A stretch of 64,000 nt of DNA from assembly GCA_024239075.1 (NCBI GenBank), contig JANBVI010000066.1, forward strand, positions 1 to 64,000, in the 5' to 3' direction. Source of the DNA: Fischerella sp. CENA71. GTDB taxonomy: Bacteria > Cyanobacteriota > Cyanobacteriia > Cyanobacteriales > Nostocaceae. This document shows, one piece after another, positions 8,674 through 64,000 of this stretch. Position 1 is the stretch's first letter. Every line of letters begins with the position of its first letter. The translations under genes were made by a program, and so were the position numbers. The notes beneath the pieces are model-generated. The model did no database searches. It saw only the letters and a list, made by a program, of their open reading frames with translations, and was not told the DNA's origin.

Positions 8674-10803
8674 ATGCTACTGGACTTCTCTAGTCAAAAT
8701 CTCCGTGGTCGCTCCTTTAGAGGTCAAAACCTTGAGGGGGCGAACTTTAGCGGTGCAGATATACGAGGTGCAGATTTTAGTAAAGCTAATTTGAGAGGGG
8801 CAAACTTCACGAGTGCTAAGGCTGGACTGCAACGTCGGTGGGCAATTTTCCTAGTTCTTGTCTCATGGTTGTTGTCGGCACTATCAGGATTATGCTTGTA
8901 TGTCAATGGTTATTTTGTGTCGCTAATTTTTGATACCCAGAGCTTAGAGAAACAGATCGCGGGCTGGACTGCCTTAATCGTATCGATTGCCGTCTTTTTC
9001 CTCATAATTCGCCAAGGAGTAGCAGCCTTCGCCGTCGCCGTCGCCGGAGCCATTACCGTCATCGGAGTCTTGACTGTGGGCATCGCCTTCCGCCTCATCG
9101 TCTCCTTCAACGGAGTCTTGGCCGCGGCCATCGCCTTCGCCTTCCCCTTCGCCTTCGCCGTCACCGTCGCCCTCCCCTTCGCCGTCGCCGTCACCGGAGC
9201 TGTCGCTTTCCCCTTCGCCTTCCCCTTCACCGTCACAGTCGCCGTTACCGGAGCCGTCGCCTTCCCTTTCGCCTTCCCCTTCACCTTCCCCTTTGCCGTC
9301 GCTGGAGCCGTCCCCTTCCCCTTCCCCTTTGCCGGAGCCGTCGCTGGAGCCGTCGCTGGAGCCTTCGTCGTCACCGGAGTGTTAACAAGCATTTACATTG
9401 GTTGGCGAGCAATGAAAGGAGACGAAAAACATTCTTGGGTTCACAATATTGCTGTTGCCTTTGCTGCTACAGGAGGTACAAGCTTTCGTGGCGCTAACTT
9501 AACTGATGCTGATTTCACAGGAGCCACTCTCAAAAGTACAGATTTCCGAGGCGCTACATTAATCCGTACTCGTTTCCAGCAAGTCAAAATGCTTGACCGT
9601 ATTCGCCCTGGTCAAACTTATCTTCAAAAGGCAGAAGTACGTCAATTATTAGTCACAAGGCTGGGACAAGACAAAAAGTTTGACCGTCAAGACTTGCGAG
9701 GAGTCAATTTACAAGGGGCTAACCTAACAGATGCCAGTTTTATTGGCTCTAATCTGAGTGAGGCATCTTTGGAAGATGCAGACTTATCCAGAGCGAAGTT
9801 AGTACAGACACAACTGGACAGAACTGACTTCACAGGCGCTACTCTCACCGGAGCCTACATTGAAGATTGGGGCATTACCAGTGACACAAAGTTTGACGGG
9901 GTGAGGTGTGAGTACGTTTATATGCGCCTCCCCACTAAAGAGAACCCTGACCCTCTTCGTAAGCCGGACAACCTACAAGAAGTTTTTGCAGATGGGGAAT
10001 TTGGAGATTTCATCAAACCAATTGTTGATACCCTCGACCTCTATCACAACTCTGGTGTTGACCCTCGCGCTATCGCGATCGCCTTTAAACAACTAGCAGA
10101 AAATAATCCAAATGCAGAACTAGAAATTGTGGCAATGGAAAAACGAGGTCAGGATAAGTTTTTACTTAGAGCCAAGACAGCAGAAACTGCTAATAAGTCT
10201 GAATTAAGTGCTGAATATTTTGATACTTACAATGAGATAAAAGCCTTAACAGCACGAGAAATAAAATTATTAGTAGCTGAAAAAGAGAATCAAATTCGCA
10301 GATTAGAAAATATGGTACTGACGGCGCTAGAGCGCCCTAGCTTTTATTCAAATGTTGAGCAGGTAGGTTTTATGACTAACAACCCCGATGGGATCTCTCA
10401 AAATATGAGTGGTGGTACAATGCACGGCGGGATGCAAGCAGCGCAGGGCGACCAAAACCAGCAAACTATGGAGACTAATGTCACTGCATCTGACGACAAG
10501 CAGCTAACCAAAGAAGACGTAATTCGGATGCTGGCACAGATTGAAGAGATAATTCGCAGTGCAGAACTACCACCAGATACCAAAGAAGAAGCAACTCTAT
10601 ACTTAGGCGCTGCTAAAAAAGCAACTGAAAAAGAGCCACCGAACAAGGAGGCAGCACAAGTTAATCTTAAAAGTATGGCTGATACTTTGGAAACTGCTTC
10701 CAAGACAGTCACATCAACTAAGAGCCTTTGGGAAAATGTCAAACCAATTCTCAAAGAATTACCGGGATGGCTTGGTGTTGCAAAAAGTTTCTTTGGATTT
10801 TAG
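8674..10803 (+). CDS. Pentapeptide-repeat membrane protein with C-terminal signalling motif (candidate effector)
   Basis: 709 residues. Order: pentapeptide repeats (A(N/D)LxG type, about residues 8-48); hydrophobic segment; a low-complexity region built of V/A/F/P/G (about 117-239) likely spanning the membrane several times; further pentapeptides (about 270-305 and 345-405); a coiled-coil region; then SGGTMHGGMQAAQG (579-592) and a helical tail ending GWLGVAKSFFGF. The GGMQAAQG motif recurs in the partner NACHT ATPase, whose start is 12 nt downstream, and in a CHAT/nSTAND pair at 61.4-64 kb. I infer a membrane-acting effector triggered by the NACHT protein. The low-complexity region uses GCC/TTC/CCC codons unlike the rest of the gene. 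Confidence 0.75.
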   Translation: MLLDFSSQNLRGRSFRGQNLEGANFSGADIRGADFSKANLRGANFTSAKAGLQRRWAIFLVLVSWLLSALSGLCLYVNGYFVSLIFDTQSLEKQIAGWTALIVSIAVFFLIIRQGVAAFAVAVAGAITVIGVLTVGIAFRLIVSFNGVLAAAIAFAFPFAFAVTVALPFAVAVTGAVAFPFAFPFTVTVAVTGAVAFPFAFPFTFPFAVAGAVPFPFPFAGAVAGAVAGAFVVTGVLTSIYIGWRAMKGDEKHSWVHNIAVAFAATGGTSFRGANLTDADFTGATLKSTDFRGATLIRTRFQQVKMLDRIRPGQTYLQKAEVRQLLVTRLGQDKKFDRQDLRGVNLQGANLTDASFIGSNLSEASLEDADLSRAKLVQTQLDRTDFTGATLTGAYIEDWGITSDTKFDGVRCEYVYMRLPTKENPDPLRKPDNLQEVFADGEFGDFIKPIVDTLDLYHNSGVDPRAIAIAFKQLAENNPNAELEIVAMEKRGQDKFLLRAKTAETANKSELSAEYFDTYNEIKALTAREIKLLVAEKENQIRRLENMVLTALERPSFYSNVEQVGFMTNNPDGISQNMSGGTMHGGMQAAQGDQNQQTMETNVTASDDKQLTKEDVIRMLAQIEEIIRSAELPPDTKEEATLYLGAAKKATEKEPPNKEAAQVNLKSMADTLETASKTVTSTKSLWENVKPILKELPGWLGVAKSFFGF
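9024..9390 (+). repeat. Simple-sequence expansion (GCCGTC/TTCCCC units) inside the pentapeptide gene
   Basis: Nested repeats of GCCGTCGCC, TTCCCCTTC and ACCGGAGCC occupy about 365 bp in frame, encoding alternating V/A and F/P/A residues. The stretch is far more C-rich than flanking coding sequence, as expected for slippage-driven expansion with protein-level tolerance for any hydrophobic residue. Confidence 0.8.
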
Positions 10804-10815
10804 TTTTACTAGCTT

Positions 10816-12984
10816 ATGACTCAGCCTGTGCCTCCTGAAAACAACCCACCATCACAGCCTGAAGCTGGTATTCAGCAGCAGGCTGAAAATTCAAATCTGG
10901 GTGGTGGGATGCAGGCTGCTCAGGGTAATAACAATATCCAAATTCAAGGAGATAATAATTTTTTCAACAATACTCTGAATTTTATTTTAGGACGTAGGGA
11001 TAGTAGTGAATCACTAAATTCCAGAGACCGTGTACAACAAATATTGTTAAAACAAGTTAGTACTGAAGTTGAAAGTCGGATAAATAGTTCCCTACACAAT
11101 CGGGTTTATGTTGTTCTAGAAACAGAGCAAAATCCATCTCAGGTTGAGACTCTTTGGGAGATGGAGGTCAAAGTTGGTTCTAAACCTAAAGTTCGTTTGA
11201 AGAATACCGAAATTATCACAGTTTTTGACCAGCTAGATATTGCTGGTAGATTATTAATTTTAGGTCAGCCTGGTGCAGGAAAAACCACCATGCTCCTTAA
11301 GTTAGCTGAGGAACTAGTAAAACGTGCCAATAAAAATCCTACAAAACCTATACCAGTACTATTTTCTTTACCTTCTTGGAAAAAAGGTAATCAAAGTATT
11401 AAAGATTGGTTAGTTGATCGACTAAAAGATAAATACGGTGTGCGGAAAGATATTGGTAAACAGTGGGTAGATAATCAAGAAATTATACCCTTACTAGATG
11501 GTTTAGATGAGTTAGCAGCAGAACGTCAAGAACAATGTGTTAGAAAAATTAATGATTTTCTACACACTGGATGGAGCAATCCTTTAGTTGTTTGTAGTCG
11601 GATAGAAGAGTATCAACATTATGCTACTTTACTACAACTAAATAACTCGCTGGAATTACAGCTTTTTACCCAAGAGCAAGTTTATGGATATTTACAAAGC
11701 ACGGAGAATTTACAATTGTGGAACAGCATTAGCCATGATGCTGATTTAAGCCAGTTAGCTAGAACACCACTTTTATTAAATGTTATTGTTCTTTCTGCTC
11801 AAGAAATATCACAAGAAACTTGGCAGCAGTTCAAGTCCTCTGAGGAGCGTTTAAGTTATCTATTTGATTCTTATATTCGTAGGATGCTTAAACGTCCTTA
11901 TAAGGATAAAAAACAGCCTAAGCAAGAAAATACTCAACGCTGGTTAGGTTGGTTGGCACAGCAATTAATTGAGGAGAATACGACGGATTTTTTGATTGAA
12001 ATAATACAGCCGTATTGGTTGAAAAAGCAAATTCAAAAGTCTGTTTATAATTTCATTGTATGGGGAGTTGTATATGGACTGATTTACGGACTGATTTATG
12101 GGCTGATTTCTGGGTTGGTTTCTGCGTTGATATATGGGCAGATATATGGGCAGATTTACGGGCTGATTTACGGACTGATTTTAGGGTTGATTGCTGGGTG
12201 GATTGGGTTAATTTCTGGGTGGATGTATGGGCAGATATCTGGGCTGATTTATAAGCTGATTTCTGGGCTAATTTCTGGGCTGATTTCTGGATTGATTTTA
12301 GGGCTGCTTTATGGGATGTTTTCTGGGCTGTTTTCTGGGCTAATTTCTGGGCTAATTTCTGGGTTGATTTCTGGGCTAATTTTAGGGCTAATTGGAGATA
12401 AAATTCAAACCGTTGAAAATCTAAAGTTTTCTATTAATAAGCTTTTAGATGGGCTGATTTCTGGGCTAATTTTAGGGCTGATTTCTGGGCTAATTTTAGG
12501 GCTAATTTCTAGTAAGATTTCTGGGCTATTTTTAGGGCTAATTTTAGGGCTAATTTCTGGGTTATTTTGGGGAATTGATGGGTTAGAGGTTGAGAGCAAA
12601 ACTATTCCTAATCAAGGAATTTATCAATCAGCTATTAACGCTGTTATTATATCAGTAGTAACTTGTTTATTGGTTGCACCATTATTCTTTTTTATAATTC
12701 CAATAATTATACAATCTAAAATTAATGTAGAACAAACTTTAATTTATAGTTTGGTGTGGGGATTATTTTTGGGAATATTCCATGGAATATCCAGAAGTGG
12801 AACGCCTGCTATTAAACATTTTGTTTTGCGCGTAATTCTTTGGTCTAACGGCTACATCCCTTGGAACTATGCCAAGTTTCTCGACTACTGCACCAATCGC
12901 CTATTTCTGCAAAGAGTCGGTGGTGGCTACCGCTTCATCCACAAACTGCTGCAAGACCACTTCGCCCAAATGCCGTTTGAGTAA
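10816..12984 (+). CDS. NACHT-family STAND NTPase with tandem-repeat membrane region
   Basis: 722 residues. The leader carries GGMQAAQGNNNIQIQGDNN (30-48). A NACHT ATPase follows: Walker A GQPGAGKTT (150-158), Walker B LLDGLDEL (226-233), and a CSRIEEY sensor-like block. Then a long region (about 415-585) of GLISGLIYGL-type repeats, strongly hydrophobic and probably membrane-embedded, and a C-terminal block GYRFIHKLLQDHF typical of NACHT conflict proteins. NACHT NTPases act as oligomerising signal switches. Twelve nt separate it from the pentapeptide effector gene, so the two are almost certainly one operon. No LRR, WD or TPR sensor is seen, so the repeat region or tail may sense membrane disturbance (inference). 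Confidence 0.85.
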   Translation: MTQPVPPENNPPSQPEAGIQQQAENSNLGGGMQAAQGNNNIQIQGDNNFFNNTLNFILGRRDSSESLNSRDRVQQILLKQVSTEVESRINSSLHNRVYVVLETEQNPSQVETLWEMEVKVGSKPKVRLKNTEIITVFDQLDIAGRLLILGQPGAGKTTMLLKLAEELVKRANKNPTKPIPVLFSLPSWKKGNQSIKDWLVDRLKDKYGVRKDIGKQWVDNQEIIPLLDGLDELAAERQEQCVRKINDFLHTGWSNPLVVCSRIEEYQHYATLLQLNNSLELQLFTQEQVYGYLQSTENLQLWNSISHDADLSQLARTPLLLNVIVLSAQEISQETWQQFKSSEERLSYLFDSYIRRMLKRPYKDKKQPKQENTQRWLGWLAQQLIEENTTDFLIEIIQPYWLKKQIQKSVYNFIVWGVVYGLIYGLIYGLISGLVSALIYGQIYGQIYGLIYGLILGLIAGWIGLISGWMYGQISGLIYKLISGLISGLISGLILGLLYGMFSGLFSGLISGLISGLISGLILGLIGDKIQTVENLKFSINKLLDGLISGLILGLISGLILGLISSKISGLFLGLILGLISGLFWGIDGLEVESKTIPNQGIYQSAINAVIISVVTCLLVAPLFFFIIPIIIQSKINVEQTLIYSLVWGLFLGIFHGISRSGTPAIKHFVLRVILWSNGYIPWNYAKFLDYCTNRLFLQRVGGGYRFIHKLLQDHFAQMPFE
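12060..12570 (+). repeat. 12-bp tandem repeats (GGGCTGATTTCT) in the NACHT gene
   Basis: Degenerate copies of GGGCTGATTTCT and GGGCTAATTTTAGGG follow one another in frame over about 500 bp, with one break near 12400-12450. They encode GLIS/GLIL/GLIY units. The period is a multiple of three, so unit gain and loss would keep the frame. Confidence 0.85.
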
Positions 12985-18356: not shown

Positions 18357-19517
<1,161 letters not shown>

Positions 19518-27811: not shown

Positions 27812-28453
27812 ATGATTATCGGGCTGACTAACCAAAAGGGGGGCGCGGGGAAAACCACTGTATCTGGGCATCTGGCATACTGGTTAAGCCAACGCGGGAC
27901 AGTGATTGTTGTAGATGCAGACGCACAGCAGAGCAGTACAAACTGGATGAAAGACCTGCAACTGCCGTGTAAAACAATGATAGACCCGGATGATTTGTTT
28001 GATGAACTTCCAGTGCTGGCAGAACAATATGATGCTGTAGTTGTGGACGGACCAGGTAGTTTGAGTGAAACGACAAAAGCAATTTTATCCAGATGTGATC
28101 TAGCTCTAGTACCCTGTAAACCAGCAGGGTTAGATATGCACAGTACATCCAAGATGGTACGAATATTGCGACAAGCCAGAGAATTACGTTCAGGAATGCC
28201 CCATGTTGGTTTGTTCCTCAACCAAGCCAAAAAAGGAACTGTATTACTTAAGGATGCTCAACGCGCTCTCTCAGAAAAAAATACGGGGTTTCCTTTACTA
28301 AAAACAATGGTGTATGACCTTCAGGTAATTGCCGACGCACCAGGGCAAGGAACCACCGTTTGGGGACTACCCGGTGCAACAGCCAAACGCGCAGCCAAAG
28401 ACTTTGAGGAACTTTTTACTGAAGCCTTGGGGGTAGCCAATGGCAAGAGATAG
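27812..28453 (+). CDS. parA: ParA-family partition ATPase
   Basis: 213 residues with deviant Walker A NQKGGAGKTT (7-16), VVDADAQQSST (switch region) and VVDGPGSLSE (Walker B). It is the short ParA type lacking an N-terminal HTH, as in type Ib plasmid systems. It moves plasmid DNA by ATP-dependent nucleoid binding with ParB. Its stop overlaps the parB start by 14 nt, so the two are translationally coupled. Confidence 0.9.
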   Translation: MIIGLTNQKGGAGKTTVSGHLAYWLSQRGTVIVVDADAQQSSTNWMKDLQLPCKTMIDPDDLFDELPVLAEQYDAVVVDGPGSLSETTKAILSRCDLALVPCKPAGLDMHSTSKMVRILRQARELRSGMPHVGLFLNQAKKGTVLLKDAQRALSEKNTGFPLLKTMVYDLQVIADAPGQGTTVWGLPGATAKRAAKDFEELFTEALGVANGKR

Positions 28454-29345
28454 AAGAATGGTAGAAGAATTTATCTTTAGGGATGATGCTAACCAGACTA
28501 AGGCTACTATGCCCCTAAGTTTGATTGTGCTACCCCAGGAGGAACTGCGCTACTACATCGACCCAGAAGAAGTAGAAAAAATTGTTGCTTCTGCTAGAAA
28601 AAACGGCATTCTGGAACCGCTTTTAGTTCGTCCTATCCCTGGTAGTGAGCAACATGAAGTAGTAGCAGGGGCGAAACGCTACAGAGCAGCCCAGATTCTG
28701 GAACTTGCAGAAGTCCCTGTTGTTGTCCGCGAACTTAATGATGAAGATGCCCTAGAAATTGCCCTGATTGAAAACTTTGCTCGTTCGGCATTAACTGACC
28801 TAGAAGAAACAGATGGAGTTGTGCGGCTGTTGGCTGTCAAGCTCAAAATCTCACCCCCAGAAGTACCACCACTGCTGCATCACATTCAAAACCAACAACG
28901 AGGCAGAACTTCTGCCAATAACGTTATTGGCAATGATGTAATTGCTGTGGTGCAATCTTGTTTAACATCTTTAGGCAACATCAAACTAGATTCATTTATC
29001 AGTAATCGCCTGCCCTTGCTCAATTTACCCAGCGACATTTTAGAAGTTTTACGCCAGGGGAAATTGGAGACAAGTAAAGCCAAAGCGATCGCACGAGTTA
29101 ATGATGAAGAAACCAGAAAACAACTTCTTGAAGATGCTCTAGCCCACAATCTCTCGTTGAATGAAATTAAGCGCAAAATTAAAGAAATTGAGCAGCAGTC
29201 AAAAAGCGAGTCACCATCTTTAAAAGACCAAGTTGATGATACTTTCCAACGCTTCAAAAAAGCTAAAGTGTGGGATGACCCCAAGAAAAAAACCAAAGTA
29301 GAGAAGCTGTTGGCACAGTTAGAAGCATTGATGAAAGCAGATTAA
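28440..29345 (+). CDS. parB: ParB/RepB/Spo0J-family partition protein
   Basis: 301 residues. The N-terminal ParB/Srx nuclease-like/CTP-binding domain shows YYIDPEEVEKIVASARKNG, EPLLVRPI, VVAGAKRYRAAQ (the GERR-like box, here GAKR) and ALIENFARSALTDLEE. The middle is a less typical HTH region, and a charged C-terminal coiled-coil (KRKIKEIEQQSKSE) follows. Co-translated with parA. Candidate binding sites are the repeats at 27353-27418 and 29508-29710. Confidence 0.85.
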   Translation: MARDRRMVEEFIFRDDANQTKATMPLSLIVLPQEELRYYIDPEEVEKIVASARKNGILEPLLVRPIPGSEQHEVVAGAKRYRAAQILELAEVPVVVRELNDEDALEIALIENFARSALTDLEETDGVVRLLAVKLKISPPEVPPLLHHIQNQQRGRTSANNVIGNDVIAVVQSCLTSLGNIKLDSFISNRLPLLNLPSDILEVLRQGKLETSKAKAIARVNDEETRKQLLEDALAHNLSLNEIKRKIKEIEQQSKSESPSLKDQVDDTFQRFKKAKVWDDPKKKTKVEKLLAQLEALMKAD

Positions 29346-29507
29346 TTGAGAAATTGTAGTGGAAATTCAATTGGCTATTATTGGCATCAGCCTATGTGGA
29401 GTTTTTCGCGCTTTAGTGAAGGCGATCGCAAGGGGAACTAATTGTTTTTGTAAGAAAAAAGTTAAATATACTACATCTGTAATCAGTAAATACAGAAGAA
29501 TTATTGA

Positions 29508-29710
29508 CCAGACAATTAAATAAATGGCAAAAACTTCACAAGACAACTGGTAATTGTCCGCTAGTGTCTGCCGGACTGTCGGCTCGACAATTTTAATAGT
29601 AGGGCAGACAACGAGATATTGTATGGCAGAAAACGCACCAGACAGCACACCAGACAGTACCAACAGTACGGCAGACAATGATATTTGTCCGGCAGACGAC
29701 AGACAAAATA
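29508..29710. repeat. GCCAGACAA / TTGTCTGGC repeat cluster A
   Basis: At least seven related units: CCAGACAATT (29509), TTGTCCGC (29555), TGTCTGCCGGAC (29566), GGCAGACAAC (29603), CCAGACAG twice (about 29639, 29651), GGCAGACAATGATATT (29671) and GGCAGACGACAGACAA (about 29691). The array starts in the non-coding stretch after parB and runs into the first 30 codons of the next gene. Similar units recur at 38102-38256. Confidence 0.65.
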
Positions 29711-30309
29711 ATGATATTTTTTCAAAAATTTCTATATTAGAATTACAAAAAAAATATGGCATTGGTCGTGACTCGTTGTATGGTCGGATGCGTTACCTCC
29801 AGATAGCGACCTACAAGATCAAGGGTAAGGCTTATCTGGATGCCGAGCAGGTAGCGCACATGGACGGACTACACGACCACATTCAGGCGACCGGAAAGAT
29901 GGAAGGTTATCCAATACCAGAACCATCAGGCCCCAGACAAGAGGAACAAGAAGCAGAACAGACAACTGCATTGGTAGAGATTTCTGAAGAAATTACAGTC
30001 TCTAACAATCAGCAAATTGAAAACTCACCGACTGCAACTTACCCAACTCCTGTAACTGCCACGATATCAAGAGCAGATGTTGAGCAAATTAAAGTAGAAG
30101 CACAGCAACGGGTGAAAGCAAAGCGGTTGGCTGTAATTCAAGTTGCTAAAGCTTATGAGGAAAACCCTGATTTACTGCCAGAAGATATTAAGGCTGAGAT
30201 AGAAGCGGCAGAAATGGCAGCAATCAGTACGCCACTAAATCACAAGCCCTACTATGAGGGAAACGCCCTAGCTCAGATGGTAATCCAAGATTTAATACTC
30301 AGCAGCTAA
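29623..30309 (+). CDS. HTH-like hypothetical protein after parAB
   Basis: 228 residues from ATG 29623 (a TTG at 29554 is in frame). The first 35 residues are a low-complexity D/S/T/N tract encoded by the repeat cluster. Then ILELQKKYGIGRDSLYGRMRYL resembles a MerR/excisionase-type HTH with KGKAYLDAEQVAHMD as the wing. A long charged helical tail follows. It may bind the repeats in its own 5' end, acting as autoregulator or partition accessory factor (inference). Confidence 0.55.
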   Translation: MAENAPDSTPDSTNSTADNDICPADDRQNNDIFSKISILELQKKYGIGRDSLYGRMRYLQIATYKIKGKAYLDAEQVAHMDGLHDHIQATGKMEGYPIPEPSGPRQEEQEAEQTTALVEISEEITVSNNQQIENSPTATYPTPVTATISRADVEQIKVEAQQRVKAKRLAVIQVAKAYEENPDLLPEDIKAEIEAAEMAAISTPLNHKPYYEGNALAQMVIQDLILSS

Positions 30310-30344
30310 CCATCTGGGGAATATCGCCAAAGTGGCTAACTTTT

Positions 30345-31370
30345 TTGGCAATATTTTTAGTAAGTAGCATTGTTACAGTTAGCGGAGTCTCTTTTATTTC
30401 GTTGGTGGCAACCTTGGTTGGAAGTGCGATCGCATTATTTCCTAAGCCGAGCTTATTCTCTAGGAATGACAAGGCAATAACTGAAAACTCAAGCTCTGTG
30501 GCTGTTGAGTTAGAACCACCAGATAGTTTTGCAACTGTCCAGTCTGCACAAGTTGGAAACTCTCGACTTTATCGACAATCTGAACTCAACCGGATCAAGG
30601 CTTCACTTTTGGCTAATGGTGCAATTTTGGTAGTGGGCGAAGAAGGAAGCGGGAAATCTACTTTGGCTAATGCTGTGGTGGAAAGCTTGCAGGAAGACGG
30701 CTTTACACTTGCCTTTATTGAACCTGCTACACCCAAGCAGATGTTAAAAGAAATAGCCGAACAGTTGGGGGTGGAGACTCAAAATTTGGAGGGTAAAACT
30801 TTAACAGCTGACCAATTGAAACGAGCGATCGCCACCTATTTAAGTAACAACACGGCTTTTTTAGTCATAGACGATGCCCACGTTTGTGAAGCAAAATTTC
30901 GGTTGTGGTTAAAACAACTACGCCGGGAAAATATACCTATGTTGTTACTTGCCACCGACCCACCCCGTAGTGATGTGTTTATTTCTATCCCCCGGATTGA
31001 ATTAAAACCACTACCAGAGTATGCAATTCGGGAAATCATGGTGCAAGCGGCCGCCGAGAGGCAAATTAACCTTAAACCCTCTGAGCTTGCCAAACTGCAA
31101 GAACGCGCCGGGGGCAATCCCATGCTGGCAATGCGAGCCGTAGACGAAGAATACTTAGGACTGGAGATGGAAGGAGCTGATCACAGGAGATATTTTGACA
31201 TCACGCCTCTAATACTCTTAGTAGGCGTTGTATTTGTCGTTATGCGGTTTATAGGCTTAGGGACTTCGGATCAGGCATTGTACATTTTTGGAGGTATCGC
31301 CGCGGCCATTTTCCTCGGTCTTTCCCGCCTCTTGTATAATCTGCCACGCGAAAGTCAGAGGATACGGTAA
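30345..31370 (+). CDS. Membrane-anchored AAA ATPase (ExeA/TniB-like)
   Basis: About 341 residues from a TTG; start uncertain. The N-terminal hydrophobic stretch (FLVSSIVTVSGVSFISLVATLVG) anchors the protein. Walker A is GEEGSGKST, Walker B FLVIDDAHV, with LLATDPPRSDVF and FERAGGNPML-like sensor region. C-terminal hydrophobic helices (LILLVGVVFVVMRFIGLG; YIFGGIAAAIFLGLS) give two further spans. Related ATPases power secretion or DNA transfer. It sits in the forward run after parAB. Confidence 0.65.
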   Translation: MAIFLVSSIVTVSGVSFISLVATLVGSAIALFPKPSLFSRNDKAITENSSSVAVELEPPDSFATVQSAQVGNSRLYRQSELNRIKASLLANGAILVVGEEGSGKSTLANAVVESLQEDGFTLAFIEPATPKQMLKEIAEQLGVETQNLEGKTLTADQLKRAIATYLSNNTAFLVIDDAHVCEAKFRLWLKQLRRENIPMLLLATDPPRSDVFISIPRIELKPLPEYAIREIMVQAAAERQINLKPSELAKLQERAGGNPMLAMRAVDEEYLGLEMEGADHRRYFDITPLILLVGVVFVVMRFIGLGTSDQALYIFGGIAAAIFLGLSRLLYNLPRESQRIR

Positions 31371-31456
31371 TCAGTGAACAGTTATCAGTTAGCATTTACC
31401 TTACACCCCTACACCCCTACACCCTTCCTTATACCCCTACACACACTGTAAATATA

Positions 31457-32500
31457 ATGCTTGGGATTTCGCATCTGTTGATTAGTGGCACGGCTACATC
31501 ATTATTATTGGGAACTGCTAGCCCGACTATCATTGCTGTGGGGGCGATCGCTGGTCTTGTTCCTGATATTGATATTTCTACTTCTCCGGCGGGTCGTGTT
31601 CTTCCGTGGGTGAGTGCATTTTTTGAGTCAAAAATGCCTCACCGCAGTTGTACCCACAGTTTGGTTGCGAGTGGAGTTGTAGCAGCTGTTGGGTATGGAA
31701 TTGCCCTTTTCAATCCGCGAATAATCAACCTCATCCACGCTCTAAATATTGGCTATACCTTTGGCTGGTTTGCTGACGTGTTCACCCGTGGCGGCGTCGA
31801 GATGTTCTGGCCTTCCCCGGTGCGTTGTGTATGTCCTGGAAATCGTAATCTCCGCTTACGGACTGGGAGCAATGCTGAATATTTTGTGTTGGTGGTGTTA
31901 GTTGCGATCGCTCTGGGGGTTTTCAATATCAACAACTCAGGCGGTTTATTTACTCAGTTCAACAGACTAATTGCTTCCCCGTCCGGTGTACAGCATATCT
32001 ACAACGAATCTGGCAGTACGCACTTGATTAAAGCCAATATTAAAGGAGTGCGGACAAGCGATCGCTCTAAGGTTGTTGGTCAATTCCTTATTATTCAAGC
32101 TCAAGGCACAGGCTTTTTAGTCCAAGCTGACGACGGCAGGATTTACAAGGCATCAACTGAACCAGATGCCCAAATTTTCTTAGAGGAAATCACCGCCGAT
32201 GTAGGAAAGCCAGCCATCACCAATATTGAAGCTGTGACACTAGAAGATGAACCAATCAACGCTGCACTAGAGAAATTTAAACGCACTGGTGCAATGGTCT
32301 TTGTCAGTGGTCAGTTATCAGTTGACAGTCTAGACGAAGTAACTTTGCCTCGTGACCCTTACCAATTCCCTTACATCAAAGCATCTGACACTACACTTAC
32401 CCTAGAAGCTGCACCGCTTGGAATTGTTCAAAGTCAGTTGGGTGAAGAATTCGCCATAGGACAGCTGCAAGTGAAGGTTATCAATACCAGCAGTCAATAG
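31457..32500 (+). CDS. YdjM-like membrane metal-dependent hydrolase with C-terminal extension
   Basis: 347 residues. The N-terminal about 140 match the YdjM/LexA-regulated membrane hydrolase family: GISHLLISG (His), GLVPDIDIS (DxD), PHRSCTHSL (HR..TH) and several membrane spans, with DVFTRGG. The remaining about 190 residues are a soluble beta-rich domain not usual for the family, possibly periplasmic. Function of YdjM-type proteins is not well defined. Confidence 0.7.
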   Translation: MLGISHLLISGTATSLLLGTASPTIIAVGAIAGLVPDIDISTSPAGRVLPWVSAFFESKMPHRSCTHSLVASGVVAAVGYGIALFNPRIINLIHALNIGYTFGWFADVFTRGGVEMFWPSPVRCVCPGNRNLRLRTGSNAEYFVLVVLVAIALGVFNINNSGGLFTQFNRLIASPSGVQHIYNESGSTHLIKANIKGVRTSDRSKVVGQFLIIQAQGTGFLVQADDGRIYKASTEPDAQIFLEEITADVGKPAITNIEAVTLEDEPINAALEKFKRTGAMVFVSGQLSVDSLDEVTLPRDPYQFPYIKASDTTLTLEAAPLGIVQSQLGEEFAIGQLQVKVINTSSQ

Positions 32501-32566
32501 TCATTAGTCACAAAGTCAAAAGTTGTTTTCCCTTGTTCCCTATTCCCTACTCCCCAATTTTTAACC

Positions 32567-33649
32567 ATGCCTAAACCACTACCAGCGCCAACACTAAAAC
32601 CGAATCAGACAAAGAAACCTGCGGCCGAATCAACATCTGATGGCATTTTATTAGGTGATAAAGTCTGGTGGAATCCTACCAAGCTACCTAATGGCCACAT
32701 TGCCATTATTGGTGCATCTGGCAGTGGAAAAACCCAGACATTAAAAGCCATAGCGTATGAACTAACTCGCTTTATACCGAGTGTACGCTGCATTGTAATC
32801 GATTTTCACGGCGACCAAGAGCTTCCCGGCGAGGTTTGTTATCCACTCAACATGGAATCGCCTTATGGTATCAATCCCCTGGTGATTGACCTTGACACCA
32901 AAGGCGGGGGGCCATCACTACAAGCGATCGCAGTTGCAACCATCCTTAAAAAAGCTCTGGTGATGGGTGTTAACCAGGAAGGATTAATCATCGACATCCT
33001 GACCACCTGCTACAAGCAACGGGGAATTATTCAAGATGACCCCACGACCTGGAGGCGCGAACCTCCCACATTTGCTGATGTGCGAGAGGAAATAGACAGC
33101 AGGATTAAGAGTGGTTGCAAGGAATCCTCCAAACTTACGCTCAAATTGGCGGCGATGTTTGAGTATGGAATATTCACTCGGCCCCAGCCGTCGCTAGATG
33201 CTCAGATTATCCGTTTTGATTTGTCAGCATTGGGTAAGGTTCCTGGTTTGGGTGCGATCGCAGCCGAAGCTCTGATTAAACAGGTTATGGATGCTCACAG
33301 AATCCTTGGTGAAATTGAGGGGAAAATTCCTAGAAGTTACATATTTATTGATGAGTGTAAGGAAGCAAAAGATTCAAAAACACTAAATTTAGTATTTGCA
33401 GATGGTAGGAAATATGGGCTAGGTGCTGCGGTAGGCTCTCAAAAAAGAAAAGATATGAGCGATGACGTAATTATGAATAGTTCAACAAAAATTATTTTGG
33501 CAGTTGATCAAACTGAGGTTAAAAGGATAGCTAAAGATTTTAGATTTGCCGAAGGCTTGGTTGGTCAGTTACAACCATTAGAAGCTCTAGTGAGAATGGG
33601 TAGCAACGGAGAGAAATGTAAAATCAAGCCTTTTTATGAAAGAATTTAG
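32567..33649 (+). CDS. HerA/FtsK/VirD4-type ATPase
   Basis: 360 residues with Walker A IIGASGSGKTQTL, VIDFHGDQE (Walker B-like), IFIDECKEA and a C-terminal arginine-rich motif region VAVDQTEVKRIAKDF. This is the RecA-like hexameric pump fold used by conjugative coupling proteins and HerA helicases. It has no membrane anchor of its own. The next gene overlaps by 14 nt and encodes an inner-membrane fusion-like protein, so the two may form one complex. Confidence 0.75.
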   Translation: MPKPLPAPTLKPNQTKKPAAESTSDGILLGDKVWWNPTKLPNGHIAIIGASGSGKTQTLKAIAYELTRFIPSVRCIVIDFHGDQELPGEVCYPLNMESPYGINPLVIDLDTKGGGPSLQAIAVATILKKALVMGVNQEGLIIDILTTCYKQRGIIQDDPTTWRREPPTFADVREEIDSRIKSGCKESSKLTLKLAAMFEYGIFTRPQPSLDAQIIRFDLSALGKVPGLGAIAAEALIKQVMDAHRILGEIEGKIPRSYIFIDECKEAKDSKTLNLVFADGRKYGLGAAVGSQKRKDMSDDVIMNSSTKIILAVDQTEVKRIAKDFRFAEGLVGQLQPLEALVRMGSNGEKCKIKPFYERI

Positions 33650-61414: not shown

Positions 61415-62434
61415 GTGAAAAAAATCCTTATATTATCAGCTAATCCAAAGAACACAGACAAGCTCCGCCTAGACCAAGAGGTGCGGGAAATCCAAGCAGC
61501 GCTCAAACTCGCTAAAAATCGAGAGCAATTTGAAATCGTCACTGCTTGGGCGATACGAGTTGAAGACTTGCGCCGTGCGCTGTTGGAACACCAACCGACT
61601 ATCGTTCACTTTTCTGGGCATGGTAATGGTAGTACTGGCTTAGCCTTAGAGAATAATTCTGGGCAGATGCAACTTGTGAGTACAGAATCCTTGGCAAAGT
61701 TATTTGGGTTGTTTCAGGACAAAATACAGTGTGTTTTACTCAATGCCTGCTATTCACAAGTCCAAGCAGAGGCTATTCACCAACACATTGATTATGTTGT
61801 GGGCATGAATCAGGCGATTGGGGATGTAGCTGCCATTGAGTTTGCTGTTGGATTCTACGACGCGCTGGGTGCGGGCAGACCTTATGAGGATTGTTTTAAA
61901 GTTGGTTGTGCTTCTATCGACCTACAGGGAATTCCAGAGTCAGAAACACCGATACTCAAAGCAAGGCAGCGTTTGCATTCTTTTTCTGCGATTGAAGAAA
62001 CAGAGAACAAAACCAAATTAGAGAAGAACAGCACTATGTCCGAACGAAAATCACAGCTTCCTTATAGTGGAATTTCTCAAAGTGTTAGTGGTGGTCGAAT
62101 GTACGGCGGAATGATTGCTACACAGGGGAACAATAACCAACAAACGATGACCAACTATACAACGCCTGAACAAAAGCATAATCTGGTACAAGCCGCCCAA
62201 GAAATTCAACAACTTTTGCAACACCTGGAGCAGATTTATCCTACTAAAAGTAGTGCTGAAAAAATGATGGTTGTTACTAAAGCTGTGGATGAAATTGAAA
62301 ATAATCCACCTTTGAAAGCCTGCGTGATAGGAGCTTTGAAAGCTGGTGGAACTGAAGCTTTCAAAGAACTAATTAACCATCCCTTAGTTAATATTATGAT
62401 GGCATCTATAGAAGGTTGGCAGGAGGCTGAATAA
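61415..62434 (+). CDS. CHAT-domain protease with C-terminal signalling motif (candidate effector)
   Basis: 339 residues from GTG. The CHAT caspase-like domain shows MKKILILSANPKNTDKLRLD, catalytic His69 in HFSGHG and Cys112 in LLNACYS. After a linker, SGGRMYGGMIATQGNNNQQ (226-243) matches the motif of the pentapeptide protein, followed by a helical tail KACVIGALKAGGTEAFKELI ending GWQEAE. CHAT peptidases act in caspase/separase-like cell-death or immune cleavage. The next gene encodes an nSTAND NTPase with the same motif at its N-terminus, so it is the likely switch. Confidence 0.88.
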   Translation: MKKILILSANPKNTDKLRLDQEVREIQAALKLAKNREQFEIVTAWAIRVEDLRRALLEHQPTIVHFSGHGNGSTGLALENNSGQMQLVSTESLAKLFGLFQDKIQCVLLNACYSQVQAEAIHQHIDYVVGMNQAIGDVAAIEFAVGFYDALGAGRPYEDCFKVGCASIDLQGIPESETPILKARQRLHSFSAIEETENKTKLEKNSTMSERKSQLPYSGISQSVSGGRMYGGMIATQGNNNQQTMTNYTTPEQKHNLVQAAQEIQQLLQHLEQIYPTKSSAEKMMVVTKAVDEIENNPPLKACVIGALKAGGTEAFKELINHPLVNIMMASIEGWQEAE

Positions 62435-62702: not shown

Positions 62703-64000
62703 ATGAACAAACCTGAGTATCCTGAAGAAAATTTACCTCCTAACCCTCAGCCTAGTATTCAGCAAGACGCTGATAATGCCACATTAGCTGGTGGAATGCA
62801 AGCTGCAATTGGAGATGATAATATTCAGATTCAAGGTGATAGAAACACTATCACGCAAACTAAGATTCTGCAAATCTCTGTTGACGAGATTAAAACCCGT
62901 CAATTTATACAAACTTCTCCCTACAAAGGTTTAAAGAAATTTGAACTAGAAGATAAAGACTTGTTTTTTGGGCGTGACCAATTGATTACACAATTGGTAA
63001 AGAAGCTAGAACACAGAAACCTAATTTTACTCTTAGGAGCTAGTGGTAGCGGTAAATCATCAGTAGTACGTGCAGGATTAATTCCTTGGCTCTCACGAAA
63101 ATGGGGGTCACACTTTGTTCATCTGACGTTTACCCCTGACCAAGACCCTTTTGAATCTTTATATGCTAGCTTGCTCAGTAAATTTCCGCAAAAAGAAGCT
63201 CAAATTGCCCGTGAGGCGAAAGCTGATACTGTAACTCAGGTGGTGACAAAGCTAAAGCAATCAGAGTCTTTTTGGTTGATTTTTATTGACCAATTTGAAG
63301 AACTATTTACTACTACAACAGTTCTAGAGAAGCGTAACCAATTTATTAATGGGCTGGTGAAATTAAGCCAAAGAAAGAATAATTCCGTCAAAATCATGGG
63401 GACGATGCGGGCTGATTTTCTTGACAAGTTAAGCCCTTATCCTCAACTAATCAAAACGACTGATGATAGTCGTCCACTAATAGCAGAGATGCAACTTGAT
63501 GAGTTACGGTTGGCGATTGAACAACCTGCTGCTCATTATGGGGTAGTATTTGAAACTGGGCTGGTAGAGGAAATCATCAAAAATGTCCAGGGACAGGCTG
63601 GGTATTTACCTTTATTGCAGTACACTCTGAATCTACTATGGGAGACAGAAGTACAAACTGGCAGTATTCGTGACCGCACATTAAATACTAGTACTTACCG
63701 ACAGTTAGGCGGTGTCAGAGGTGCGCTTCAACAACGTGTAGATGGTATCTATAACGAATTACCAGAGGCTGAGAAGCGAGCAGCTCAGAGAGTTTTTCTT
63801 AAACTGGTTGGTATTAATGAGAATTCTGAAGCTGATACTGAAGGTCAGCCAGTTCTTAGAAGAGCTTTACGGTCTGAATTTAGCGATGAACTTGAGCAAA
63901 GTATGCTGGTAAAGTTGATCGATGAAAATTTATTAGTTAGTGACCGCCAGCCACAATCTCAAGAATCTACTGTAGAAATAGCCCATGAAATGCTGCTGAC
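62703..64000 (+). CDS. nSTAND1-type NTPase, partial (runs past window end)
   Basis: 432 codons are visible and the frame is open to the end. The leader PSIQQDADNATLAGGMQAAI then GDDNIQIQGDRN has GGMQAAIG at 30-37, as in the NACHT protein. Then SPYKGLKKFELEDKDLFFGR, Walker A GASGSGKSS (112-120), Walker B WLIFIDQFEEL (191-201), GTMRADFLDKL and EIAHEMLL at the end, the winged-helix entry. These are the signature blocks of nSTAND1 NTPases, usually followed by WD40 or TPR sensors. Located 268 nt after the CHAT gene. Confidence 0.88.
   Translation, partial: MNKPEYPEENLPPNPQPSIQQDADNATLAGGMQAAIGDDNIQIQGDRNTITQTKILQISVDEIKTRQFIQTSPYKGLKKFELEDKDLFFGRDQLITQLVKKLEHRNLILLLGASGSGKSSVVRAGLIPWLSRKWGSHFVHLTFTPDQDPFESLYASLLSKFPQKEAQIAREAKADTVTQVVTKLKQSESFWLIFIDQFEELFTTTTVLEKRNQFINGLVKLSQRKNNSVKIMGTMRADFLDKLSPYPQLIKTTDDSRPLIAEMQLDELRLAIEQPAAHYGVVFETGLVEEIIKNVQGQAGYLPLLQYTLNLLWETEVQTGSIRDRTLNTSTYRQLGGVRGALQQRVDGIYNELPEAEKRAAQRVFLKLVGINENSEADTEGQPVLRRALRSEFSDELEQSMLVKLIDENLLVSDRQPQSQESTVEIAHEMLL

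Follow-up and report, generated by a model that had tools for sequence, protein, structure and literature searches.

A short motif matched between adjacent pentapeptide-membrane and NACHT genes of a cyanobacterium suggests a two-gene signalling unit with exchangeable motifs

Bacterial amyloid signalling sequences (BASS), known from systems that combine a Bell-domain effector with an NLR, are reportedly the subject of Dyrka et al. 2020. As described in the parts of PMC7889193, PMC8086366, PMC12261475 and PMC9815663 covered here, a short motif is common to adjacent genes in these systems, on the C-terminal side of the effector and at the N-terminus of the NLR, and the systems occur in multicellular bacteria, including cyanobacteria. 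The Bell domain is the commonest effector, with CHAT and TIR as reported alternatives (PMC7889193, in the part covered). In fungal pairs (HET-s, PP, sigma and PUASM) the genes are likewise clustered, and the receptor motif is proposed to template the effector motif (PMC9815663 and PMC7889193, in the parts covered). A third relevant group is formed by the EAD/TRADD-N conflict systems of multicellular bacteria, in which a homotypic adaptor joins STAND NTPases and effectors (PMC8195603, in the part covered).

We analysed a stretch of 64,000 nucleotides from Fischerella sp. CENA71, hereafter the window, which is part of an 85.6-kb contig in a genome of 7.47 Mb. Two genes on its + strand, separated by 12 nt, carry the same motif, named X here:

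8674..10803, + strand: P1, effector-side gene, 709 aa; Pfam pentapeptide repeats (E=2e-35)
10378..10479, + strand: motif X, effector side, P1 residues 569-602; profile E=7.6e-16 in its own genome, the sequence itself being in the profile
10504..10800, + strand: tail A of P1, residues 611-709; predicted four-helix bundle (AlphaFold mean pLDDT 92.6, 19 sequences)
10816..12984, + strand: P2, receptor-side gene, 722 aa; Pfam NACHT (E=6.2e-8, residues 146-293)
10858..10959, + strand: motif X, receptor side, P2 residues 15-48; profile E=5.8e-15 in its own genome, the sequence itself being in the profile

P1 is composed of a pentapeptide solenoid, a membrane-helix region, a second pentapeptide solenoid, a linker domain, the motif and a helical tail, with hydrophobic stretches from residue 55 to 244. 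AlphaFold predicts the solenoids (residues ~1-50 and 271-390) confidently, and the membrane helices and the linker (413-562) with low confidence. The motif stretch has no predicted structure (pLDDT ~25-35, in a whole-P1 model that is poor, mean pLDDT 55.4), a low value that does not count as amyloid evidence. Pentapeptide models are the only ones for which P1 exceeds the Pfam cut-offs, the Bell profile lying outside the set of models searched. P2 has the motif near its N-terminus, followed by the NACHT NTPase, a long hydrophobic region of GLISGL-type repeats (hydrophobic segments from residue 413 to 638) and a C-terminal region; its NACHT domain scores above the curated Pfam cut-off (33.1 bits versus 26.7). 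Low-complexity, repeat-rich regions of both genes, at window positions 9040-9390 and 12050-12730, encode hydrophobic stretches, and by eye these DNA repeats appear prone to length change.

The pair resembles BASS in that the same motif lies in adjacent genes, at the effector and receptor ends described above, and in that the receptor is an NLR-type NTPase (NACHT). It differs in having a pentapeptide-membrane protein as effector, in the helical tail of ~100 residues that follows the motif, and in the exchange between motif classes that is indicated among relatives. This comparison was made by gene arrangement and published descriptions rather than by BASS1-10 profiles. As for the fungal pairs, several of their motifs have been shown to propagate as prions, whereas motif X is known from sequence, and Pfam and PDB comparisons revealed no sequence relation between the two.

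The first-pass annotation had placed the core GGMQAAQG at residues 585-592 of P1 and 30-37 of P2, in genes 12 nt apart, and these positions proved exact (nt 10426-10449 and 10903-10926). The two cores agree at 19 of 24 bases and are 453 nt apart. While the core stands as first described, the stretch common to both proteins is longer than had been thought: it spans ~34 residues, reads roughly GI.Q......GGMQA.[QI]G..N.Q and is rich in N, Q and G. No convincing relative was found in Pfam (2 of 27 members touch MCM4_WHD, best E 0.055), and none of solved structure among PDB sequences (one match, E=4.5). RHIM-type families were absent from the Pfam matches of the 27 members and from the PDB sequences, in searches where HMMER is weak on motifs so short. 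GGMQAAQG did not occur in the open full-text literature searched.

We built a motif X profile from seven motifs, which are the same seven copies that it finds in the genome itself (E<=10), all of them within three clusters of adjacent genes. Applied to 218 family genomes at E<=0.001, the profile yielded 131 copies in 51 genomes, and its column-shuffled version matched none of the 218. Same-strand neighbours no more than 1 kb apart numbered 41 and came from 30 of the 51 genomes, where random placement, with each genome taken as 7.5 Mb, would give 0.023; 95 of the 131 copies lie in clusters with copies at most 8 kb apart. A second-round profile gave 135 motif ORFs, 103 of them in loci that hold two or more. 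A single motif ORF is present in 32 of the 79 loci with a motif ORF, which counts against pairing. The median pairwise dN/dS of the motif codons, for pairs limited to 70-97% identity, is 0.19 on the effector side (186 pairs) and 0.26 on the receptor side (170 pairs), low values that fit purifying selection.

The 135 motif ORFs derive from 139 matches by keeping the best match per ORF at E<=0.01 and removing the duplicate copy of the second window pair. By a length rule of this analysis, ORFs were considered receptor-like (57) if the motif was preceded by at most 95 residues and followed by at least 200, and effector-like otherwise (78). Sequence clustering divides the effector N-parts into CHAT-type (30), pentapeptide-membrane (19), a 1240-aa type (2), a single one (1) and short ones (26), and two tail families (33 and 29 members) are each found with both CHAT and pentapeptide parts. 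Pfam assigns the receptor representatives to nSTAND1-WD40, NB-ARC-TPR, NACHT with pentapeptides, and iSTAND. Same-strand motif neighbours were ordered effector-receptor in 40 cases, receptor-effector in 6, effector-effector in 6 and receptor-receptor in 1, and three pairs were on opposite strands. Effector-receptor pairs less than 1.5 kb apart combine CHAT with nSTAND1-type proteins (18) or pentapeptide-membrane proteins with P2-like NACHT proteins (7). The pentapeptide-membrane protein is hence a recurrent partner in the motif-sharing pairs of relatives, and the linker domain of P1-type effectors is present in 137 of the 218 family genomes. Our results show that the effector/NLR arrangement with a common motif first proposed for this locus is real, recurrent and ordered (40 versus 6), and that the motif co-occurs repeatedly in a profile search (131 copies in 51 of 218 genomes, 41 close neighbours). 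The opposite case raised at the time, a low-complexity tail that is not enriched in adjacent pairs, does not hold, given the silent shuffled profile and the excess of neighbours. The motif shared by P1 and P2 is neither due to chance nor low complexity.

Some loci depart from the two-gene pattern. Seven motif X ‘receptors’ lack a P-loop, and the one searched carries a DctP solute-binding domain; these proteins (L114:4328-5650 and six similar loci) lie directly 3′ of a short motif+tail A protein. NB-ARC-TPR receptors with motif X in L077, L098, L099, L100 and L113 have no recognisable partner within the fetched stretch. Single-motif loci include five of the seven NB-ARC-TPR receptors, and the partner of such lone receptors is possibly located elsewhere in the genome. 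In L087 (8320-12120) and L089 (7830-11615), proteins of ~1265 aa bear motif X at their extreme C-terminus; for the one in L087, a Pfam search gave nothing at E<=0.001.

The genome itself contains further motif clusters, one of them near the end of the window and, like the helical tail of P1, absent from the first-pass annotation:

61415..62434, + strand: second effector of the window, CHAT (caspase-like) protein; motif X E=5.5e-18, core GGMIATQG from 62105, tail B from 62162
62703..64000, + strand, running past the window end: second receptor of the window, STAND NTPase; 1208-aa open frame, motif core GGMQAAIG from 62790, E=2.6e-16

The first of these proteins clusters with the CHAT-type effectors, whose representative L072 matches Pfam CHAT (E=2e-10). 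Its FSGHG starts at residue 66 and its LNACYS at residue 109, which we take to be the His/Cys dyad. The second clusters with nSTAND1-WD40-like receptors (representative L082: nSTAND1 E=3.3e-114, plus WD40). A third X cluster, on contig C61, comprises a P1 paralogue, a 150-aa motif+tail protein and a large NTPase, so that all seven copies of motif X in this genome lie in clusters with effector-type and receptor-type genes. On contig C8 there is another P1 paralogue, which has at its end not X but a motif named Y here (GNYNE..I.GDY). Y occurs three times in the genome, always within the C8 cluster: in this paralogue, in the gene after it and in a CHAT gene. Compared in 60-base windows, P1 and the C8 paralogue show 92-98% identity along ~270 bases of linker-domain sequence, and all similarity is lost abruptly in the few codons that immediately precede the motif. 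The CHAT proteins of the window (motif X) and of C8 (motif Y) are 55% identical over 383 aligned columns.

Motif Y is found in 52 of the 218 family genomes (E<=1e-4). In nine of 21 loci (L194, L196-L199, L202, L208, L209 and L212) a pentapeptide effector with Y directly precedes a P2-like NACHT gene with Y, and in L210 the effector has both X and Y and the receptor Y. We fetched 60 further loci (L213-L272) by the effector linker domain alone; they are 60 of the first 62 unfetched rows among the matches listed, G174:C10 and G083:C171 having been passed over. Two more classes came from these loci, V (VQGDNN-type repeats) and W (FDLxxAQFAGG..QIGG), and the pentapeptide-membrane effector carries at least four motif classes. 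Profile-profile comparison detects no relation among X, Y, V and W (probabilities 0.04-1.1%; the best, X/V, 1.1%, E=0.021), X and V having a QGxxN element in common. No receptor N-terminus was matched by two class profiles.

We then compared the classes of neighbours by searching the N-terminal 120 residues of each downstream ORF with profiles made from effector sides only. The class seeds were chosen after a listing of effectors and neighbours had been viewed, and the profiles contain effector sequence only. Among 98 effector ORFs (97 unique), 71 have a same-strand downstream ORF of at least 130 aa at -200 to 700 nt. In 49 of these 71 pairs both sides could be labelled, and the classes match in 48 (permutation mean 13.5, value reached in 0 of 100,000). 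Pairs of X and Y come mostly from loci found by motif, which inflates the matched X/Y numbers and does not itself create a match between neighbours. Restricting the comparison to the domain-fetched loci (66 effectors and 46 downstream ORFs, with 27 pairs labelled on both sides), 26 of 27 match (permutation mean 14.0, reached in 0 of 100,000): V/V 16, W/W 8, VY/Y 1, YV/V 1 and V/W 1. The domain-fetched set consists almost entirely of V and W, since loci that had been retrieved earlier through X or Y are not part of it. The lone mismatch, L262 (V versus W), has a receptor start that by eye is also V-like. Five effectors bear two classes and have a labelled neighbour; in each, it is the class closer to the C-terminus that agrees with the neighbour (VY/Y 3, XY/Y 1, YV/V 1). 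The 22 effectors outside the two-sided labelling include 12 whose class recurs at another place in the downstream protein, 9 for which no class was found in the neighbour and 1 unlabelled effector. With a variant set of profiles, whose V seeds included one X sequence, 47 of 50 pairs matched, or 49 of 50 if a match by any class was accepted.

Covariation specific to individual pairs could not be established inside class X: over 31 non-redundant pairs the matched identity was 0.357 and the shuffled one 0.345, and shuffles reached the matched value in 1073 of 20,000 cases for all pairs, 4970 of 20,000 for CHAT-nSTAND1 and 10,337 of 20,000 for pentapeptide pairs. With no finer pair specificity established, there may be cross-talk among the three clusters that carry X in this genome.

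How the classes are distributed over gene trees bears on their origin, with the caution that both trees are quick, of modest support and disturbed by gene conversion. The effector-domain tree (n=83) requires at least 35 changes of motif class, compared with a shuffled mean of 44.5, so that there is some clustering of class; its starred branches alone require 5 or 6 changes per class. On the NACHT tree (28 receptors, one receptor without class being omitted) class is not clustered, with 15 changes against a shuffled mean of 14.9. The closest relatives of P2 on this tree carry Y (L210) and V (L261).

We compared the DNA of locus pairs in 75-base windows, the pairs being picked by us from the trees. 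L199 (Y) and L221 (V) are similar over the last ~600 bases of the effector linker part (0.71-0.91), dissimilar from the motif through the tail and the gap to about receptor residue 50 (0.21-0.51), and similar again over the following ~350 residues of the NACHT protein (0.73-1.00). L194/L240 and L209/L142 likewise have a dissimilar cassette between similar flanks. Two pairs keep some similarity inside the cassette: L111/L194 in the tail, which belongs to one family in both (0.5-0.7), and L253/L267 at the beginning of the motif region (0.69-0.85). The window and L074, a congener with the same pair and the same motif, are similar in the cassette (0.72-1.00) and in the effector linker part just upstream (0.71-0.93), and less so in the NACHT part (0.37-0.71). 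The scatter of classes over the trees can be attributed, from these comparisons, to replacement of a stretch that spans both motifs between better-conserved flanks. They indicate that in relatives unrelated motifs were put on both sides together. In the window it would correspond to the following:

10350..10966, edges approximate, + strand: inferred exchange cassette, with effector motif, tail, 12-nt gap and receptor N-terminal motif

Taken together, our results suggest that the short motif is a plug through which the receptor switches on its partner. We consider it fairly probable that P1 and P2 form a two-gene unit in which a homotypic motif couples an NLR-type receptor to its effector by amyloid-like templating, leading to membrane damage. 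Conservation, class matching and replacement of the motif are what we observe; the steps of oligomerisation, fold, clustering and membrane damage we infer from BASS and fungal precedents (PMC7889193, PMC9815663, PMC12261475 and PMC8086366, in the parts covered). Once triggered, the NACHT protein P2 would oligomerise, and its clustered N-terminal motifs would adopt a self-propagating beta-arch, amyloid-like fold. This fold would template the unstructured motif of P1 between the linker domain and the tail, and P1 would then cluster in the membrane and damage it, causing abortive-infection-like death or growth arrest.

The motif might instead be a homotypic docking tag that still couples NTPase to effector, through a non-amyloid contact such as adaptor binding of the EAD kind or a small beta assembly. 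Indeed, the pairing and exchange data argue for homotypic recognition and not for amyloid as such, and EADs are homotypic adaptors in comparable systems (PMC8195603 and PMC10907252, in the parts covered). We nevertheless regard this as rather unlikely. The adaptors of EAD/TRADD-N systems are folded domains, whereas the P1 motif is a short stretch of ~34 residues, N/Q/G-rich and without predicted structure; furthermore, its placement on the effector C-terminal side and at the NLR N-terminus is the one described for BASS (PMC7889193, in the part covered). No EAD-named model was found among the Pfam matches of P1, nor among the best 25 of 26 for P2 (E<=1).

A different role for P1 would be that of a membrane platform that brings NTPase and CHAT protease to the membrane, or of a CHAT substrate, rather than of a killer. 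At the window locus and in the nine motif Y loci, the NACHT gene comes directly after the P1-like gene with no CHAT gene between them, which makes this role doubtful, even if in L145, L200, L206 and L219 a pentapeptide-membrane gene and the CHAT-type gene that follows share motif Y, with a further motif Y gene in L145 and L200.

It is also conceivable, if improbable, that the four-helix tail is the real effector, motif and tail being a minimal effector to which CHAT or pentapeptide parts are add-ons. Pentapeptide effectors in those same four loci (L145, L200, L206 and L219) stop 29-33 residues past the linker domain and have no tail, which speaks against it. Tail A is predicted to be a confident helical bundle, and short motif+tail A proteins directly precede DctP-like partners (7) or a large NTPase (3). 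In addition, the motif edge and tail A are the part that resembles a defence-candidate model, PADLOC PDC-M14B: it matches P1 residues 590-693 (E=2.1e-6), as well as two short motif+tail proteins, through positions 158-262 of 267, the match being partial only. P2 had no match to PDC-M14 models at E<=0.1.

Finally, it is very improbable that the matched motifs are a by-product of duplicated or co-transferred DNA with no functional coupling: the 453 nt between the cores are near enough for one moving segment and the DNA comparisons indicate joint movement, but within class X the effector and receptor motif sequences differ and yet keep their class, the motif codons have low dN/dS, and one class is found on different NTPase families and different effectors.

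Under the templating model, every class of motif would define a signalling channel of its own, and partners that belong to one class may cross-talk. As the effector motif lies at the 3′ end of its gene, the receptor motif at the 5′ end of the next, and the cores within ~0.45 kb, a single recombination can swap both; one such event would leave the pair matched. Matching could then be due in part to co-transfer of one DNA segment instead of selection. Whether filamentous cyanobacteria use a combinatorial code of homotypic motifs as orthogonal immune channels, with receptors and effectors rewired by recombination of two-gene cassettes, seems to us evenly balanced. If they do, a receptor could move to a new channel without losing its partner, both motifs being changed at once. 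These loci would be a natural experiment on how specificity is coded in amyloid-type immune signalling. As the same kinds of effector and receptor occur with at least four unrelated motifs, cross-seeding between classes tests the motif as an address. A common type of membrane effector would also join the list of NLR effectors, and the adjacency and order of such genes would have a simple reason.

By analogy with the described systems, the principle is that of BASS and already known. In the parts covered of the open literature searched, the source paper of BASS1-10 lying outside it, we found no effector of the pentapeptide-membrane kind, no motif followed by such a tail and no exchange of a two-gene cassette. 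Bacterial motif exchange was not a title subject among the matches listed from the open full-text literature, where PMC8195603 (covered in part) was the only match for ‘pentapeptide repeat’ with ‘amyloid signaling’.

Relatives of the C-terminal part of P1 are present on 27 PLSDB plasmid records. Window positions 27812-33649 contain, by eye, ParA-like and ParB-like genes and a conjugation-type P-loop ATPase, gene content that suggests that the contig is a plasmid. On this plasmid-like contig, an intact ORF of 360 aa at 18357-19439 resembles, also by eye, psbA (photosystem II D1).
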